Positions 32,181 through 37,790 of a stretch of 38,336 bases of DNA are shown here, in pieces. The notes below the pieces were generated by a model, which saw only the letters and a list, made by a program, of their open reading frames with translations, was not told the origin of the DNA and did not search any database. Position numbers and translations under genes: made by a program. Numbering within the stretch: position 1 is the first letter of the stretch; every line of letters starts with the position of its first letter. The stretch covers positions 1 to 38,336 of the forward strand of contig MHAY01000065.1 of assembly GCA_001804705.1 (NCBI GenBank), in the 5' to 3' direction. Source of the stretch: Ignavibacteria bacterium RIFOXYC2_FULL_35_21 (GTDB lineage: Bacteria > Bacteroidota > Ignavibacteria > Kapaibacteriales > UBA2268).

Positions 32181-32203
32181 ATGTCAGGAGTAACTCCTGA
32201 CAT
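32181..32203. repeat. Hairpin between pyrE and the element 32221-32354
   Basis: A 10-bp perfect stem: ATGTCAGGAG, loop TAA, CTCCTGACAT. It lies about 64 bases after pyrE and has no T-tract, so it is not a standard intrinsic terminator. It may be a dispersed repeat or an mRNA 3' end stabiliser. Confidence 0.65.
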
Positions 32204-32220: not shown

Positions 32221-32354
32221 TGAATAGCCACTACTTTCAAGTAGTGGTGATATTAATAACCACAACACTGGGATTTATCCCCTAATTAAAATAAGTGACT
32301 AAAGTCTGAAGGCCGTCGTGAAACACCCCACTATCTGAAGATAGTGGCTATTCA
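32221..32354. repeat. Dispersed 135-bp inverted-end element, copy 1
   Basis: 134 bases bounded by the perfect 11-base inverted repeats TGAATAGCCAC and GTGGCTATTCA. Each end is itself a 9-bp hairpin: CCACTACTT-TC-AAGTAGTGG at the left and CCACTATCT-GA-AGATAGTGG at the right. The middle holds GGGATTTATCCC and TAAGTGACTAAAGTC. It aligns along its whole length, inverted, with 36550-36686. It sits between the convergent genes pyrE and 32442-33464 and contains no coding frame. Confidence 0.85.
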
Positions 32355-32441
32355 AATTGGAAACAAATTTATTTTTTTCTTTCACGAATGCATAGGTGTA
32401 TGCCAAGAAAACAGAATTCATTTATAAATTAATAATGCAAT

Positions 32442-33464
32442 CTATAATTTCAATAATTGTTCTGTCAATGATGAGGTAAGCTCTCTCAATTTATAAATAT
32501 CATCTTCTTTGAGTATGCCTTTCTCAAAACGAACCGGATAAAGTTTTTCATCTTTAATTTTATATAAGCCAAGCTCGAGTTCAGCACCTTCTTTGACCCT
32601 TTTTAAAGTACCTGTGATGTAATAATCAACCTGGAATTTTCCGAGAATTTCCATTTCAAACTTAGAGGGTGCCCTGTAGTTCTCAGCAAAATAAAGTTTA
32701 AACAATTTATAAATAGTGTCGCGTGTTGCTATGTCATATATAACAAAATCCCGGCAATCCTTTGCTGTCTCGAAAATTGTCTCCAGCATATCATACGAAG
32801 CTACTGCCATGCGAGAGTATAAATCCCATATATAAAGTTCCTCATCGTCCTGGAAATCAATACCCCCAATAATTAAAGTTGGTGCAGGTATGACATTGAA
32901 TTTTCCATCCAAAGAAGCATACATCATTGAATCTTTCAAACAAACAGCTACTGCCCTTTGAACTGCCGCCAGAAGTGATGGGTCATACAAAACCTGCTCA
33001 TCTTTCTCCTTAATGAAATGTAGAAGTGCATAACCTGTTCCTTCAGTTTTTTCATCGAAATCGTCAGCATCAACTGCAGATATATCTACCCTGAGCATGT
33101 TTTCAACACGGTTGATATTTAAGAAAAGGATTTTATTTACATTAAGCTTTTCTGCAATAGCGGCTGCTGTTGGTGCTTTATTTTGGTCAACAATTGTTTG
33201 AGCAATAGAATCCCTCATACTAAAGGGAACAAGGTGAAATCTTTCGGTCAGGCTTCCCGCAAGCGCCATAGCTGATTCTACTTTTGACAGAGTAAGGTCG
33301 CTTGCTTCCTTCCCTAATTTGACATCGGCAATCATGAACAATTCAGATTTCCTTGTATCGGCTTCTTTAGAAGTTGTTGAAACACTTGAATCAGCCAACA
33401 ATCCATTCACAAAGATTATTGAATTAAGAAATACAAGAATTGTAATTTTAAATAAGTTTCGCAT
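32442..33464 (-). CDS. Secreted hypothetical protein, TolB/CsgG-like outline
   Basis: 340 residues. A signal peptide (about 1-25, KITILVFLNSIIFVNGLLAD) starts it. I do not recognise a named family. Residues about 42-180 read like the N-terminal domain of TolB/CsgG-type periplasmic proteins (FMIADVKLGKEASDLTLSKV, AAAIAEKLNVNKILFLNI). A second half (about 190-330) has a similar build with ILGKFQVDYYITGTLKRVKE. There is no lipobox cysteine. It is divergent to the NifU gene, 162 bases away. Probable location is the periplasm. Confidence 0.65.
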   Translation of the reverse strand: MRNLFKITILVFLNSIIFVNGLLADSSVSTTSKEADTRKSELFMIADVKLGKEASDLTLSKVESAMALAGSLTERFHLVPFSMRDSIAQTIVDQNKAPTAAAIAEKLNVNKILFLNINRVENMLRVDISAVDADDFDEKTEGTGYALLHFIKEKDEQVLYDPSLLAAVQRAVAVCLKDSMMYASLDGKFNVIPAPTLIIGGIDFQDDEELYIWDLYSRMAVASYDMLETIFETAKDCRDFVIYDIATRDTIYKLFKLYFAENYRAPSKFEMEILGKFQVDYYITGTLKRVKEGAELELGLYKIKDEKLYPVRFEKGILKEDDIYKLRELTSSLTEQLLKL

Positions 33465-33563
33465 TTATTTCTATTTTGAAAATTTTACTTATACTAATTA
33501 CGTTTGAGCATTTTAAAAATTTTCTATTAAACATGTCGTTATTTGTATATTTTACAAAAATCC

Positions 33564-33595
33564 TTTTGTAATTCGTGGAAATATTATTATTATTG
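33564..33595 (+). promoter_or_regulatory. Probable promoter of the NifU-domain gene
   Basis: TTTTG (33564-33568), 19 bases, then TATTATTG (33588-33595). The spacing and -33 are consensus; the -7 element TAnnTTTG has one mismatch. It lies 31 bases upstream of the start codon. Confidence 0.5.
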
Positions 33596-33626
33596 AAAAA
33601 GAATTTTCAAAAGAAAGGTTAATGAA

Positions 33627-33869
33627 ATGTCCGATAATGATGTATTGTATCAAAATGTTTCGAATATAATCGAGAAAGAAATCAAGCCTTATATCGAAGC
33701 TGACGGTGGTAATATCAAGCTCAAAAATGTTGAAGACGGTGTTGTTTACGTTCATCTCTCAGGTGCATGTGCCGGCTGTCCGGGTGCGGCAATGACTCTT
33801 AAAGGCGGAGTTGAAAGAATACTCAAGATGAAACTTAATGACGTTAAGGAAGTAAGGCTGGCATATTAG
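33627..33869 (+). CDS. NifU C-terminal domain Fe-S scaffold protein
   Basis: 80 residues. The stand-alone NifU C-terminal (Nfu) domain holds the cluster-binding CxxC pair Cys48/Cys51 in HLSGACAGCPGAAMTLKGGV, and the N-terminal IIEKEIKPYIEADGGNIKLK block is typical. It assembles and hands on [4Fe-4S] clusters to target enzymes, plausibly including the cluster of LeuC encoded about 4 kb upstream (inference). AAAGG lies just upstream of the ATG. Confidence 0.95.
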   Translation: MSDNDVLYQNVSNIIEKEIKPYIEADGGNIKLKNVEDGVVYVHLSGACAGCPGAAMTLKGGVERILKMKLNDVKEVRLAY

Positions 33870-33937
33870 TTAGCCATACTTTTAACCCGGATTATTCATT
33901 GAAAAATAAATTATATGCGAAAGGTAAGTATAGCACG

Positions 33938-34010
33938 GTCATTCTGAGGAGTGTAGCGACGAAGAATCTCTTACAATGGTGTGAGATGCTTCGACTTCGC
34001 TCAGCATGAC
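33938..34010. repeat. Dispersed GTCATTCTGAGG...CAGCATGAC repeat
   Basis: A 73-base imperfect inverted repeat: GTCATTCTGAG pairs with CTCAGCATGAC, and GAGTGTAGCGACGAAGAATC pairs loosely with GAGATGCTTCGACTTCGCTC. This is a widely dispersed intergenic element in FCB and other genomes. Only one copy is in this window. It lies between the convergent NifU and OmpA genes. Confidence 0.75.
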
Positions 34011-34086
34011 ATTATTAAGATTTTCTTGCATTTCTAATGAATAATTTGGGTTTAATTATTGATTTGTTAGACTGGGTTGAAAATTA

Positions 34087-34116
34087 AAGCCACGGCTTAT
34101 GCTGTGGCTTTTTTTA
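34087..34116 (+). terminator. Intrinsic terminator after the NifU-domain gene
   Basis: AAAGCCACGGC-TTAT-GCTGTGGCTTT is followed by a T-tract; one G-U pair makes it better on the plus strand than on the minus strand. It lies about 220 bases past the NifU stop, behind the repeat at 33938-34010. Confidence 0.75.
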
Positions 34117-34156
34117 TAGCTTTAATTCGTATATCGTTTTTCGATGTAAACTTCAA

Positions 34157-34279
34157 TTCTATAAATATGCCGCAACTATGTTGCTCTATAAGATATTGAA
34201 TTGCGTAGCAATGACATATTTATAGAAAGACAAATCCAAATTATTCGGAATCGCATAGCGAGGGCATATTCTATAATAT
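34157..34279. repeat. TTCTATAAATATG inverted-repeat element with partial second copy
   Basis: TTCTATAAATATG (34157-34169) and its exact inverse CATATTTATAGAA (34215-34227) enclose two smaller hairpin arms. A partial repetition follows: GAATTGCGTAGCAATGACATATT resembles GGAATCGCATAGCGAGGGCATATT at about 34247-34270. Elements of this kind recur in Bacteroidetes-group intergenic regions. It ends at the OmpA stop codon and could serve as its 3' hairpin. Confidence 0.6.
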
Positions 34280-36451
34280 TTATCTCATCTTCATTATCTC
34301 AATCTCTACGGTTCTGCTTAGGAATCGCTCTTCAGGTGTTGAGTAGGAATAAATTCCCAATGGATATTTTGTTGCACCCATTCCTTCGATTTTTGTGATT
34401 TTTGCAAAAGTCATAAGAGAACGGACTGTATTACTTATTTCCCTTGCCCTCATTTCCGAAAGATATTCATTGGTCCTGTCTGTGCCGAGAAAATCGCAGT
34501 AACCCAAAATTGACATTGTCGAGTTGCCGTCCAGAATTTTCAGAAATTCTTTAATTTGATTCCTGTACAGGCTTTCGAGAATAAATTGGGAAACATCAAA
34601 CAATGGAAGAATCAGTCTCTCTATCAGCGTATCAACTGTGTCCCTGTTGATTTTTACATTTCTCATCGAGAGAGCCGCCTCGTCTTTGTCATCAAAGAGT
34701 TTATACGATATGCTCAAAGGTGCAGTGGCACTCATAGAACGAAAATCCTTTGGTATAACATCATAATAAACGGCCTGTGGTTTGCTTTTCTTTCCTTCAT
34801 TCGTTATTACTTTATCAAAGATTGATGAAGTGAGCATCCAACGGTTTACTCCTTCTTTAGAACTACCCTGCGGGTCATACATTACGAGTGTCGGCTCAAC
34901 TTTGAGCGGCTCGAGATAGTAATTTCCCTGTACAGGAGCAAGTAATTCAGGTGATGATGATTCTATTTCAACCCGCCTGTTTTCCGAATAACCAAATTCA
35001 GACTGGCTTATTGTTCTGAATTCAGGATGACAGTTATTCAATGGTGGATTTATCGTAATGCGGCTTTCCTCGATATTAAATGTATTTACTAAATAATCCT
35101 TAACAGTCTTTGCTCTTTGATTTGCAAGAGTGCAATTTATTTTTTCAGTTGTCGGGTCAGTGGTTCCTGATAGGGTTATTTTAGATGTCGGATTATCAAC
35201 CATTCTTCTACCTATGATATTCAGCACGTTTCTATGGTATATAACCGAATTTGGCTCCAGTTCTGTCTCGGAGAAAGTATTATTTTGTGAAAGGAGGTAA
35301 TATCTTTCGGGAATTTTACTTGTGTTATGCTCGAAAAATACATAAGGCAGAACAGGATAAATATCGCGCCGGAGCTGAACAGTTGCGTTGAATGAAGTTA
35401 CGGGAGAGAGTCTCTTTCCGGCTGAATCCGTTTCATACAATCCGATATTAGCAATTAAATTTGCTCCCCCAGATGTTGGCAGATATAATGTATCAACCCT
35501 GGATATCTCTTCCAGATAAACAATTGTATCCCTGTTCTCAATTTCTCTCTGAGTGATTACAGGTTCACCGGGAGAAAGATATTTAGCCGAATATTTATTC
35601 GATTGAATTGTAATCGTATCTATTAAATAATTTTTTCTTTTCAGCTCGATAAGCCTTTCGGGTGAGTATTTGAGCGATATTCCTGCATATAATGAATTGA
35701 TTTTCCATTTATTGTTTGACGTCCAGTTATTTTCACCGATTACAGGTGTAATACCATAAGTAAAAAACACTTCGGGTGCAAGGAGCAAAGAGCCTGACTG
35801 GTTGAGAAGAATTTCATAGCTCAATCCTGCAATTGCTGAGACATCAAAAGAATTGACATTAAAAATCTTTCCGTTAGCCTTCAATTCTTTTCCATTATTT
35901 TCAATAAAGACCATGTTTGAGGGTTGTACGATTTTATCATATTGCTCAAAACTATTTTCAAGATAAATACCGGCATTCGCACCGATATGAAAGAAAAGCC
36001 TGCCTACAGACTTCAGACTGAACATCGGAGAAAATGAAAATGTCGAAAGCTTAGCCTTAAATTCTCTGTCAATTTTCGCATTAAATTGTGATTGTCCATT
36101 TTGTACAAGTGTATCAAATCTTAAATCGAACTTACCGCTTTTATCAAAGTAATTTGCCCTGACTCCCAGCAGGAGCCAGTTTGTTAGAGGCATTTCGAAC
36201 AGAAGCCCAAATCCGTATCCGTCGCCTGTGCCATTATTAAGTCCGGCACAGCAATTTTTTATATTTGGAAGTGAATTAATTTTTGAATCATGCCAGTTGT
36301 AACCATATTGACCAAACAATCCATACCTTGGATTCAACTTGTAAGGGTCATTGATTAATTGGCTCGAAAGAACTGAACAAGAGATTGTCAGAATAAAGAC
36401 AATCATTGCTAATTTAATAAAAGTATTTTTTACCCGGCAGCAGGTTTTCAT
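34280..36451 (-). CDS. Outer-membrane protein with two OmpA-like domains
   Basis: 723 residues from the ATG at 36451, which has AGGTG five bases upstream (the frame is open to 36475). A signal peptide precedes an N-terminal region (about 35-265) with alternating aromatic strands (LSTFSFSPMFSLKSVGR) that looks like a beta-barrel. An extended middle follows. OmpA-like domain 1 (about 368-497) has Asp432 (TTDP), Arg446 (ANQRA) and NRRVEI. Domain 2 (about 612-721) has Asp653 (GYCDFLG), Arg668 (EMRA) and SRTVEIEI. The Asp and Arg are those that bind peptidoglycan. It probably ties the outer membrane to the cell wall at two points. Confidence 0.88.
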   Translation of the reverse strand: MKTCCRVKNTFIKLAMIVFILTISCSVLSSQLINDPYKLNPRYGLFGQYGYNWHDSKINSLPNIKNCCAGLNNGTGDGYGFGLLFEMPLTNWLLLGVRANYFDKSGKFDLRFDTLVQNGQSQFNAKIDREFKAKLSTFSFSPMFSLKSVGRLFFHIGANAGIYLENSFEQYDKIVQPSNMVFIENNGKELKANGKIFNVNSFDVSAIAGLSYEILLNQSGSLLLAPEVFFTYGITPVIGENNWTSNNKWKINSLYAGISLKYSPERLIELKRKNYLIDTITIQSNKYSAKYLSPGEPVITQREIENRDTIVYLEEISRVDTLYLPTSGGANLIANIGLYETDSAGKRLSPVTSFNATVQLRRDIYPVLPYVFFEHNTSKIPERYYLLSQNNTFSETELEPNSVIYHRNVLNIIGRRMVDNPTSKITLSGTTDPTTEKINCTLANQRAKTVKDYLVNTFNIEESRITINPPLNNCHPEFRTISQSEFGYSENRRVEIESSSPELLAPVQGNYYLEPLKVEPTLVMYDPQGSSKEGVNRWMLTSSIFDKVITNEGKKSKPQAVYYDVIPKDFRSMSATAPLSISYKLFDDKDEAALSMRNVKINRDTVDTLIERLILPLFDVSQFILESLYRNQIKEFLKILDGNSTMSILGYCDFLGTDRTNEYLSEMRAREISNTVRSLMTFAKITKIEGMGATKYPLGIYSYSTPEERFLSRTVEIEIMKMR

Positions 36452-36549
36452 GCTACACCTATATATTTCAATCATTTATATAAATGTTAATAGATAGAGC
36501 AAAAATTTTGCCAAGTATTTAAAAGGTTAGGATTAATTAGGATTAATGA

Positions 36550-36686
36550 TGAATAGCCACTATCTTTAGATAGTGGGGTTTTATTACTCTGTCACTTTCC
36601 GACTTCAGTCACTTAAATCCATTACCGGATAAATCCTGTGTAGCAGAATAAACATACCTCCACTACTTAAAAGTTGTGGCTATTCA
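36550..36686. repeat. Dispersed 135-bp inverted-end element, copy 2 (inverted)
   Basis: 137 bases with the same perfect 11-base terminal inverted repeats as 32221-32354. Its reverse complement aligns with copy 1 over the whole length. Shared blocks include GGATTTATCC, TAAGTGACT, and the right-end hairpin CCACTATCT-..-AGATAGTGG, where only loop bases differ. The left-end hairpin has one stem mismatch. It lies between the OmpA-type gene and the DUF2318-like gene. Confidence 0.85.
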
Positions 36687-37436: not shown

Positions 37437-37709
37437 AAATGCTCCCATAGATTTTTTCAAATAACTTCACTAATTCAAATTCATATTTCATAGTAAGGTT
37501 TCAATTTTAATATTATTTAATAAGTAAATATAAGAAAATATTTCTTAACATATCAATGAAAAAAATATAATTTTGTTTAATTGATAATTTAGAATGGATA
37601 ATTGAAAATGAAATTCGTTAGGTGTTTCTTGTTATGACTAGTGACTTTCGACTATTCACTGTTGACTTAAAGAATTTTCAATGAATTTTCATTTTGAAAT
37701 TTCAATTTC

Positions 37710-37743
37710 AAATGGGTTGAAAATATTCAACCCCTACAATTTA
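37710..37743. repeat. 34-bp palindromic direct repeat, copy 1
   Basis: AAATGGGTTGAA, AATA, then TTCAACCC and CTACAATTTA. It is identical to copy 2 at 37757-37790, separated from it by 13 bases. The core forms an 8-bp stem (GGGTTGAA / TTCAACCC). Confidence 0.85.
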
Positions 37744-37756
37744 ACATTCAACATCC

Positions 37757-37790
37757 AAATGGGTTGAAAATATTCAACCCCTACAATTTA
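37757..37790. repeat. 34-bp palindromic direct repeat, copy 2
   Basis: Exact second copy of 37710-37743, with the same hairpin core. It lies 19 bases past the stop of the broken T9SS gene on the minus strand. Confidence 0.85.

Follow-up and report, generated by a model that had tools for sequence, protein, structure and literature searches.

Introduction

The left and right ends of IS200/IS605 insertion sequences (IS) are asymmetric, and their hairpins have guide sequences 5′ of each. As outlined in the sources consulted, their TnpA recognizes hairpins in single-stranded DNA, the position of cleavage is set by a tetranucleotide 5′ of the hairpin foot, and a 5′ link is formed through the tyrosine (PMC6006769, PMC8266576). 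REPINs, doublets of repetitive extragenic palindromes (REPs), have been described as having two inverted hairpins, conserved outer tags, a variable spacer, compensatory changes, many intergenic non-coding copies, and a link to a Y1 enzyme (PMC3116915, PMC3733652), namely the class 2 TnpA_REP or RAYT (REP-associated tyrosine transposase). The palindrome-associated transposable elements (PATEs) of Haloquadratum are presented as transposase-free, core-deleted derivatives of Y1-type elements with palindromic ends and no target duplication (PMC3119063). Furthermore, Quentin et al. (2018), in the sections consulted, list Y1 subclass 1.2 as REP “no,” generally without typical terminal IS200 structures and not sharing IS properties (PMC6006769), and in the accessible text of the open-licence PMC literature, no link of this subclass to REPs or miniatures was found. 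The present study concerns a ~135-bp hairpin-ended element of which two copies lie in a 38,336-nucleotide stretch of DNA (the window) from Ignavibacteria bacterium RIFOXYC2_FULL_35_21. This element is very probably a non-autonomous miniature of the REPIN/MITE (miniature inverted-repeat transposable element) type, an internal-deletion derivative of a ~0.56- to 0.58-kb element with one Y1 (HUH, single catalytic tyrosine) gene of the subclass 1.2 type. The basis for this is the ends, the inner hairpins, and a gene-bearing parent, together with ~100 copies in this genome and dozens in sister species.

By its layout, the element would work like a REPIN (PMC3116915) or a miniature IS. All of the REPIN features listed above, except the class 2 enzyme, recur here, and a cognate Y1 gene lies between the same hairpins in related elements (loci L100 and L112), although none was found in the window's own genome. 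In contrast to REPINs, the element is ~135 bp long with a second, inner hairpin pair, the enzyme is of the Y---Q--HH subclass 1.2 type instead of class 2, and the same ends enclose the transposase gene in the parents. The REPIN tag is GTAG/CGTC in the description consulted (PMC3733652), whereas the left foot here reads ATAG in 37 of 41 aligned copies, AAAG in 3, and GTAG in 1, with no CGTC. The PATE features given above are likewise shared; however, PATEs, according to their description, have no terminal inverted repeats, where the element here has perfect ones of 11 to 13 bp, and their parents are archaeal IS605-type transposons (PMC3119063). With IS200/IS605, the element has in common a Y1/HUH TnpA, subterminal hairpins, and no clear target duplication, but its ends are inverted copies of each other. 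MITEs of DDE transposons differ in their target site duplication, which was not consistently found here. We therefore keep the element apart from REPIN/RAYT, PATEs, and DDE-type MITEs, as it has no GTAG/CGTC consensus tag, no class 2 enzyme, and no consistent target duplication, and as it does have inverted ends.

Results

An earlier note on this DNA, made from the sequence alone, had described two copies alignable end to end in inverse orientation with 11-bp perfect terminal repeats. The copies and their positions were borne out. The perfect terminal inverted repeat is 13 bp long in copy 1, against 11 bp in copy 2, and continues imperfectly to 27 bp. Their parts are as follows.

32221..32354, + strand: copy 1, miniature element, 134 bp, intergenic
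32221..32227, + strand: left terminal tag of copy 1, TGAATAG
32228..32247, + strand: outer left hairpin of copy 1, CCACTACTTTCAAGTAGTGG; compensatory changes at 4/8 pairs
32271..32280, + strand: inner left hairpin of copy 1 (“core”), GGATTTATCC; same place in parent L100; 2.2% departures from the commonest base
32297..32306, + strand: inner right hairpin of copy 1 (“core”), GACTAAAGTC; counterpart GGCTAAAGCC beside the gene in L100; 1.8% departures
32328..32347, + strand: outer right hairpin of copy 1, CCACTATCTGAAGATAGTGG; compensatory changes at 4/8 pairs
32348..32354, + strand: right terminal tag of copy 1, CTATTCA, inverse of the left tag
36550..36686, − strand: copy 2, miniature element, 137 bp, inverse orientation
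36557..36576, − strand: outer right hairpin of copy 2 (element orientation)
36601..36610, − strand: inner right hairpin of copy 2, GACTTCAGTC on the + strand
36627..36636, − strand: inner left hairpin of copy 2, GGATAAATCC on the + strand
36660..36679, − strand: outer left hairpin of copy 2; one T.T mismatch (+ strand), an AA pair at columns 12/24

The candidate parent was found in a genome of the same genus (L100:1350-1932 in G003). It is 583 bp long and runs from the family left end through GGATTTATCCACTTA, the Y1 gene, and AATAAGTGGCTAAAGCC to the family right end; the gene lies on the minus strand at element positions 74-517 and encodes 142 or 147 aa, depending on the start codon. The miniatures align with only the outer ~70 to 80 bp of L100 on each side, the two halves being aligned separately. 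When L100 was used as the query in four genomes of the genus, the miniatures among the matches listed fell within positions 1-78 and 505-583, and the listed gene-region matches, besides L100 itself, were all at other Y1 gene loci. Since the miniatures match only its outer parts, they look like internal-deletion derivatives of an L100-like parent. The “core” of the earlier note corresponds to the inner hairpin pair, which brackets the transposase gene in L100. A second full-length copy of the L100 type was absent among the matches listed for G000-G003, G000 being the window's own genome.

The loci of 53 Y1 matches, 6 in the window's own genome and 47 in 12 relatives, were scanned with the family model R1. 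Matches at both gene ends occurred in only three of them, L100, L112, and L097 (23 to 59 bits); the other R1 matches at Y1 loci were weaker (L033, 32.7 bits; L103, 31.2 bits) or marginal (L098, L108, and L130; E >0.4). L112 and L097 come from two further genomes within the family, that of L112 being of another genus. The L097 genome (G006) contains a full element whose ends are TGAATAGGAACGGGCTTCAGCCCGTT. The L112 genome (G007) holds a full element of 560 bp and nine miniatures of 136 to 143 bp, whose outer stem-loops are within one base per arm of the left one of L112, CCACGAGCTTTAGCTCGTGG. Their inner hairpins are closer to those of the window family than to those of L112. Outer hairpins thus seem to follow the resident element and the inner part the miniature lineage, as judged from two genomes. 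The earlier note had proposed a REP doublet or MITE mobilized in trans by a Y1 transposase, and the gene between such ends in L100, L112, and L097 supports this. The search it suggested for a transposase gene with the same ends thus succeeded in the same genus and family, and failed in the window's own genome. There, the six Y1 genes were considered as cognates and rejected; the nearest, L033, whose protein is 59% identical to that of L100, has TGAATAACCCC and CCCCATGCTTCAGCATGGGG / CCTCACACTAAAGTGTGAGG doublets besides its 32.7-bit R1 match.

Further copies were sought in the genome of the window, which comprises 4.15 Mb in 105 contigs and is 97.75% complete. A DNA search with copy 1 gave at least 40 full-length places (best 40 of 116 candidates), and copy 2 was not among them; these 40 places and copy 2 made up the 41 rows of a covariance model. 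The two window copies score 135.5 and 122.0 bits with this model (E 1.5e-24 and 1.1e-21) and are thus no product of chance, both being, however, among the rows that built it. The model search returned at least 146 matches on both strands (best 150 of 3067 candidates), corresponding to at least 102 distinct places, 101 of them non-overlapping and 90 of length ≥120 bp, some short entries being partial copies. The copy count proposed in the earlier note thus reveals further copies in plenty. R1 matched all four genus genomes searched, G000 included, with at least 83, 81, 67, and 63 rows on both strands where the best 83 candidates were scored in each, and 13 of 40 genomes overall. Besides, a tandem array at L122:1014-1564 (G000:C36) consists of one full element copy followed by six ~70-bp right-part units.

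The ends of the element are nearly invariant. The left tag reads TGAATAG in 37 of the 41 rows, TGAAAAG in 3, and TGAGTAG in 1 (L020), while the right tag is CTATTCA, that is, ATAG read inward, in all 41; in many relatives, the tag is TGAATTG. In the two local hairpins (8 + 8 pairs), the 40 distinct rows hold 29 cells that are doubly changed and still paired, vs 5.8 ± 1.8 after shuffling (0/500 shuffles as high), and pairing is kept in 97.7% of the hairpin cells. Examples are T-A to G-C at columns 12/24 in 13 rows and C-G to T-A at columns 15/22 in 6 rows. Pairing of the left arm with the right arm, tested on the same alignment, gave 3 doubly changed cells vs 2.0 shuffled (137/500 as high) and hence no signal; kinship among copies inflates such shuffle tests. 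Covariation is thus confined to the local pairs, and each end seems to keep its hairpin separately, as would be expected with a hairpin-reading Y1 enzyme. The earlier note placed the changes in the loops and regarded the stems as remaining paired. This holds in part: of the four outer hairpins, three are fully paired, and stem changes are mostly compensated; however, copy 2 has its mismatch, and stems change about as often as loops.

Departures from the commonest base amount to 0.7% in the tags, 2.2% and 1.8% in the inner hairpins, 6.1% in the outer stems, 7.2% in the outer loops, and 36.1% in the spacers. The inner hairpins are therefore the best conserved part after the end tags, and the core probably still works. 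As they hardly change, their pairing is beyond the reach of covariation. The inner hairpins GGATTTATCC and GACTAAAGTC, which vary less than the outer stems, are also conserved across the miniatures of two genera (the window's own genome and G007). One rival reading, a conserved structured RNA or a processing or terminator signal spread by unrelated means, would account for conserved hairpins in intergenic positions and for inner hairpins (~2%) that vary less than outer stems. Nevertheless, no Rfam family reaches its gathering score in the window, gene orientation around the copies shows no clear preference (convergent 7, divergent 5, co-directional 16; n = 28), and the core sits beside the transposase gene in the parent. 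The absence of an Rfam match and the presence of the core in the parent led us to reject this main identity, which we consider very unlikely, with a secondary RNA role being possible in some copies. A structured RNA, as the earlier note had suggested for the core, is not needed to explain its presence, because the inner hairpin pair brackets the L100 gene; the conservation of this pair (~2% departures) still calls for a function.

Insertion sites were compared in 35 copies, after dropping 5 of 40 with near-identical flanks; a few similar flanks remain, and one copy has no left flank. The base adjoining the element is A or T on the left in 34/34 and on the right in 35/35, the flanks being 72% A+T. 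Direct matches between left and right flanks (n = 34) numbered 12 at 2 bp, 5 at 3 bp, and 3 at 4 bp, vs 9.6, 3.2, and 1.4 expected, and repeats of 5 to 9 bp were absent among the copies compared. The target-duplication check recommended in the earlier note therefore gave no consistent duplication. This result bears on an ordinary MITE, with terminal inverted repeats, a DDE transposase, and merely incidental hairpins. The perfect repeat of 11 to 13 bp and its imperfect extension would suit such an element. In contrast, a consistent duplication is missing, covariation is seen within each local hairpin but not between the arms, and Y1/HUH genes are what the parents identified by such ends contain, no search aimed at DDE genes having been made. 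We rejected the DDE type on the missing duplication and the lack of covariation between arms, and regard it as extremely improbable.

The placement of the copies is intergenic. An overlap of >30 nt with an open reading frame (ORF) of ≥100 aa was found in 0 of 28 copies vs 1044 of 1178 random placements; 12 of the 40 were left out of this test, two near contig ends and ten with short flanks. Copy 1 lies between a phosphoribosyltransferase gene and a gene without Pfam match. Its site is without the element in the sister genomes G001 and G003 (anchor distance 393 bp here vs 128 and 77), and in G002, BLAST pieces leave 46 bp where the window has 365. It is not a clean empty site, since a TGTCAGGAGTAACTCCTGACA repeat, too, is part of the ~250 bp by which the window is longer. 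This palindrome stands at window 32182-32202, directly left of copy 1, and arrays of it flank L035, a RAYT-like Y1 gene of the window's own genome. At the orthologous intergenic site of copy 2, G001 and G002 have the element in the same orientation, and G003 does not have it. At L006:1460-1680 (G000:C52), an element copy has the same ~35-bp stretch on both sides, an unusual duplication around an insertion.

Twenty own-genome copies (L281-L303) share a ~70-bp right flank ending ...TAATTTGTCATATTTTTGTTTTACCATCGC, some of them sharing the left flank too, and this composite seems to be copied as a unit. Domesticated REP doublets with a host role in supercoiling or mRNA stability, with the Y1 gene acting as a housekeeping nuclease, would fit the few cognate Y1 genes (at least one L100 element in G003, none listed in G000-G002) vs many non-coding copies, as in REPtrons. 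Yet copy 1 is lineage-specific among the genomes compared, the gene in L100, L112, and L097 lies inside an element with two inverted ends and not beside an array, and six near-identical copies within the composite suggest recent copying. Such domestication therefore appears highly unlikely.

The proteins of L100 and L112 contain DHIH, WQ, and YIKNQE[ED]HH, and that of L097 has DHCH in place of DH[IV]H. L100 scores 65.4 bits with the NCBIfam IS200 model (cut-off 55) and 31.2 bits with REP_Tyr_transpos (cut-off 80); L112, too, is above the former cut-off and below the REP-transposase one. The alignment of L100 with the structure of ISHp608 TnpA extends through both the HUH and the Tyr motif. By its motifs, the candidate enzyme appears to be a Y1 protein of the subclass 1.2 type, with Y---Q--HH, and not a classical RAYT (class 2); the earlier note had spoken of a RAYT-type transposase. 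In the published description, as far as consulted, this subclass is likewise marked by DH[IV]H, WQ, and YIKNQ-EHH, a length of ~148 aa, and Bacteroidetes among its hosts (PMC6006769).

Relatives were sampled as the best 80 of 539 confirmed ones in named genomes, mostly Ignavibacteria and Bacteroidetes by title, with some Acidobacteria, Neomarinimicrobiota, and others; they were chosen by similarity to the query and include two of its own sources (L160 and L191). A script found both the HUH and Y patterns in 67 of the 80. The flanks of 77 were tested, leaving out L173 and L200 (truncated reading frames) and L201 (too little flank), and all 77 have Y---Q--HH. Shuffled flanks were the control for inverted repeats, a between-locus control being invalid with unrelated loci sharing the same ends (12/80 above threshold). 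Upstream and downstream flanks formed an inverted repeat beating all 100 shuffles in 43/77, hairpins of ≥7 bp stood on both sides in 40/77 (vs 2.3% of shuffles), and both features occurred together in 32/77. Inner-like hairpins (GGCTTTAGCC and variants, one mismatch) flanked 46/77 on both sides, a count without shuffle control. The 34/77 that do not beat all shuffles, many Flavobacterium members among them, agree with the 2018 description. In contrast to the subclass given there, in the sections consulted, as having no REP and no IS properties (PMC6006769), many members here have inverted hairpin flanks, and the three inspected closely lie inside a bounded element.

The window and its relatives hold other repeats as well. 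An inverted pair, TATAAATATGCCGCAACTATGTTGC...GCGTAGCAATGACATATTTATAG at window 34160-34225, belongs to a palindrome family that forms an array next to L094, a Y1 gene in a sister genome, and is possibly another REPIN-like population. A dispersed repeat, GTCATTCTGAGGAGTGTAGCGACGAAGAATCTC...GATGCTTCGACTTCGCTCAGCATGACA, occupies window 33938-34011 (>20 matches listed in G001), and two tandem 47-bp units with hairpin GGGTTGAAAATATTCAACCC occupy 37690-37783. The Y1 genes L032, L033, L034, L094, L095, L099, and L103 appear, by eye, each among its own short palindromes or repeats, so one genome may hold several such populations.

Discussion

The reading of the element as a gene-less derivative of a Y1 transposon has several observations weighing against it. 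We infer its mobility from sequence; movement was not observed, the evidence being presence or absence between species only. A clean empty site was not obtained, as the copy 1 region differs by ~250 bp overall. Most insertions are apparently old, because the copies have diverged to a mean column identity of 76%. Direct flank repeats of 2 to 4 bp are slightly above expectation. The uninterrupted composite was absent among the matches listed (best 40 of 70), which held only right-flank stretches abutting the element. In G007, six of the nine miniatures have TCAATAG as the left tag, and their inner hairpins are GACTTTAGTC/GGGATTTATCCC vs the GGCTTTAGCC type in L112; as the inner hairpins differ, these miniatures would not be a fresh deletion of L112. 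In the window's own genome, 0 of the 6 Y1 genes detected had TGAATAG-hairpin ends, and a full-length parent was likewise not found. The enzyme that moved these copies would therefore be absent, unassembled, or different. The raw stem change rate is also close to that of loops (78/1280 cells, 6.1%, vs 23/320 cells, 7.2%, in the 40 distinct rows). The earlier note had taken equally frequent stem and loop changes as a sign against selection on the hairpins; the raw rates come near to this, yet such selection is still supported because stem changes are mostly compensated.

If the element moves as proposed, its DNA would become single-stranded, for example, on the lagging-strand template, and a subclass 1.2 transposase dimer, made in trans, would bind the two inverted end hairpins. 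The TGAATAG tag by each hairpin foot could then serve as the guide or cut site, with nicking through a 5′-phosphotyrosine bond and joining of the element into another A/T-flanked site. The same dimer would move the gene-bearing element and its gene-less derivatives alike. The conserved inner hairpins might form a second binding site, which is perhaps needed too.

Beyond this genus, we find it moderately probable that subclass 1.2 HUH proteins are active or recently active transposases of widespread symmetric double-hairpin elements, with outer tagged and inner GGCTTTAGCC-like hairpins inverted around the gene, and that each lineage breeds its own population of gene-less miniatures, the outer hairpins of which follow the resident enzyme. 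An orphan branch of HUH single-strand nucleases would thereby gain a testable DNA substrate. The symmetric ends on a Y1 enzyme, vs the asymmetric ends of IS200/IS605, raise a concrete mechanistic question. Furthermore, with a parent, a deletion derivative, and a population of ~100 copies side by side, this case would illustrate a route from a self-contained transposon to a REPIN-like family.

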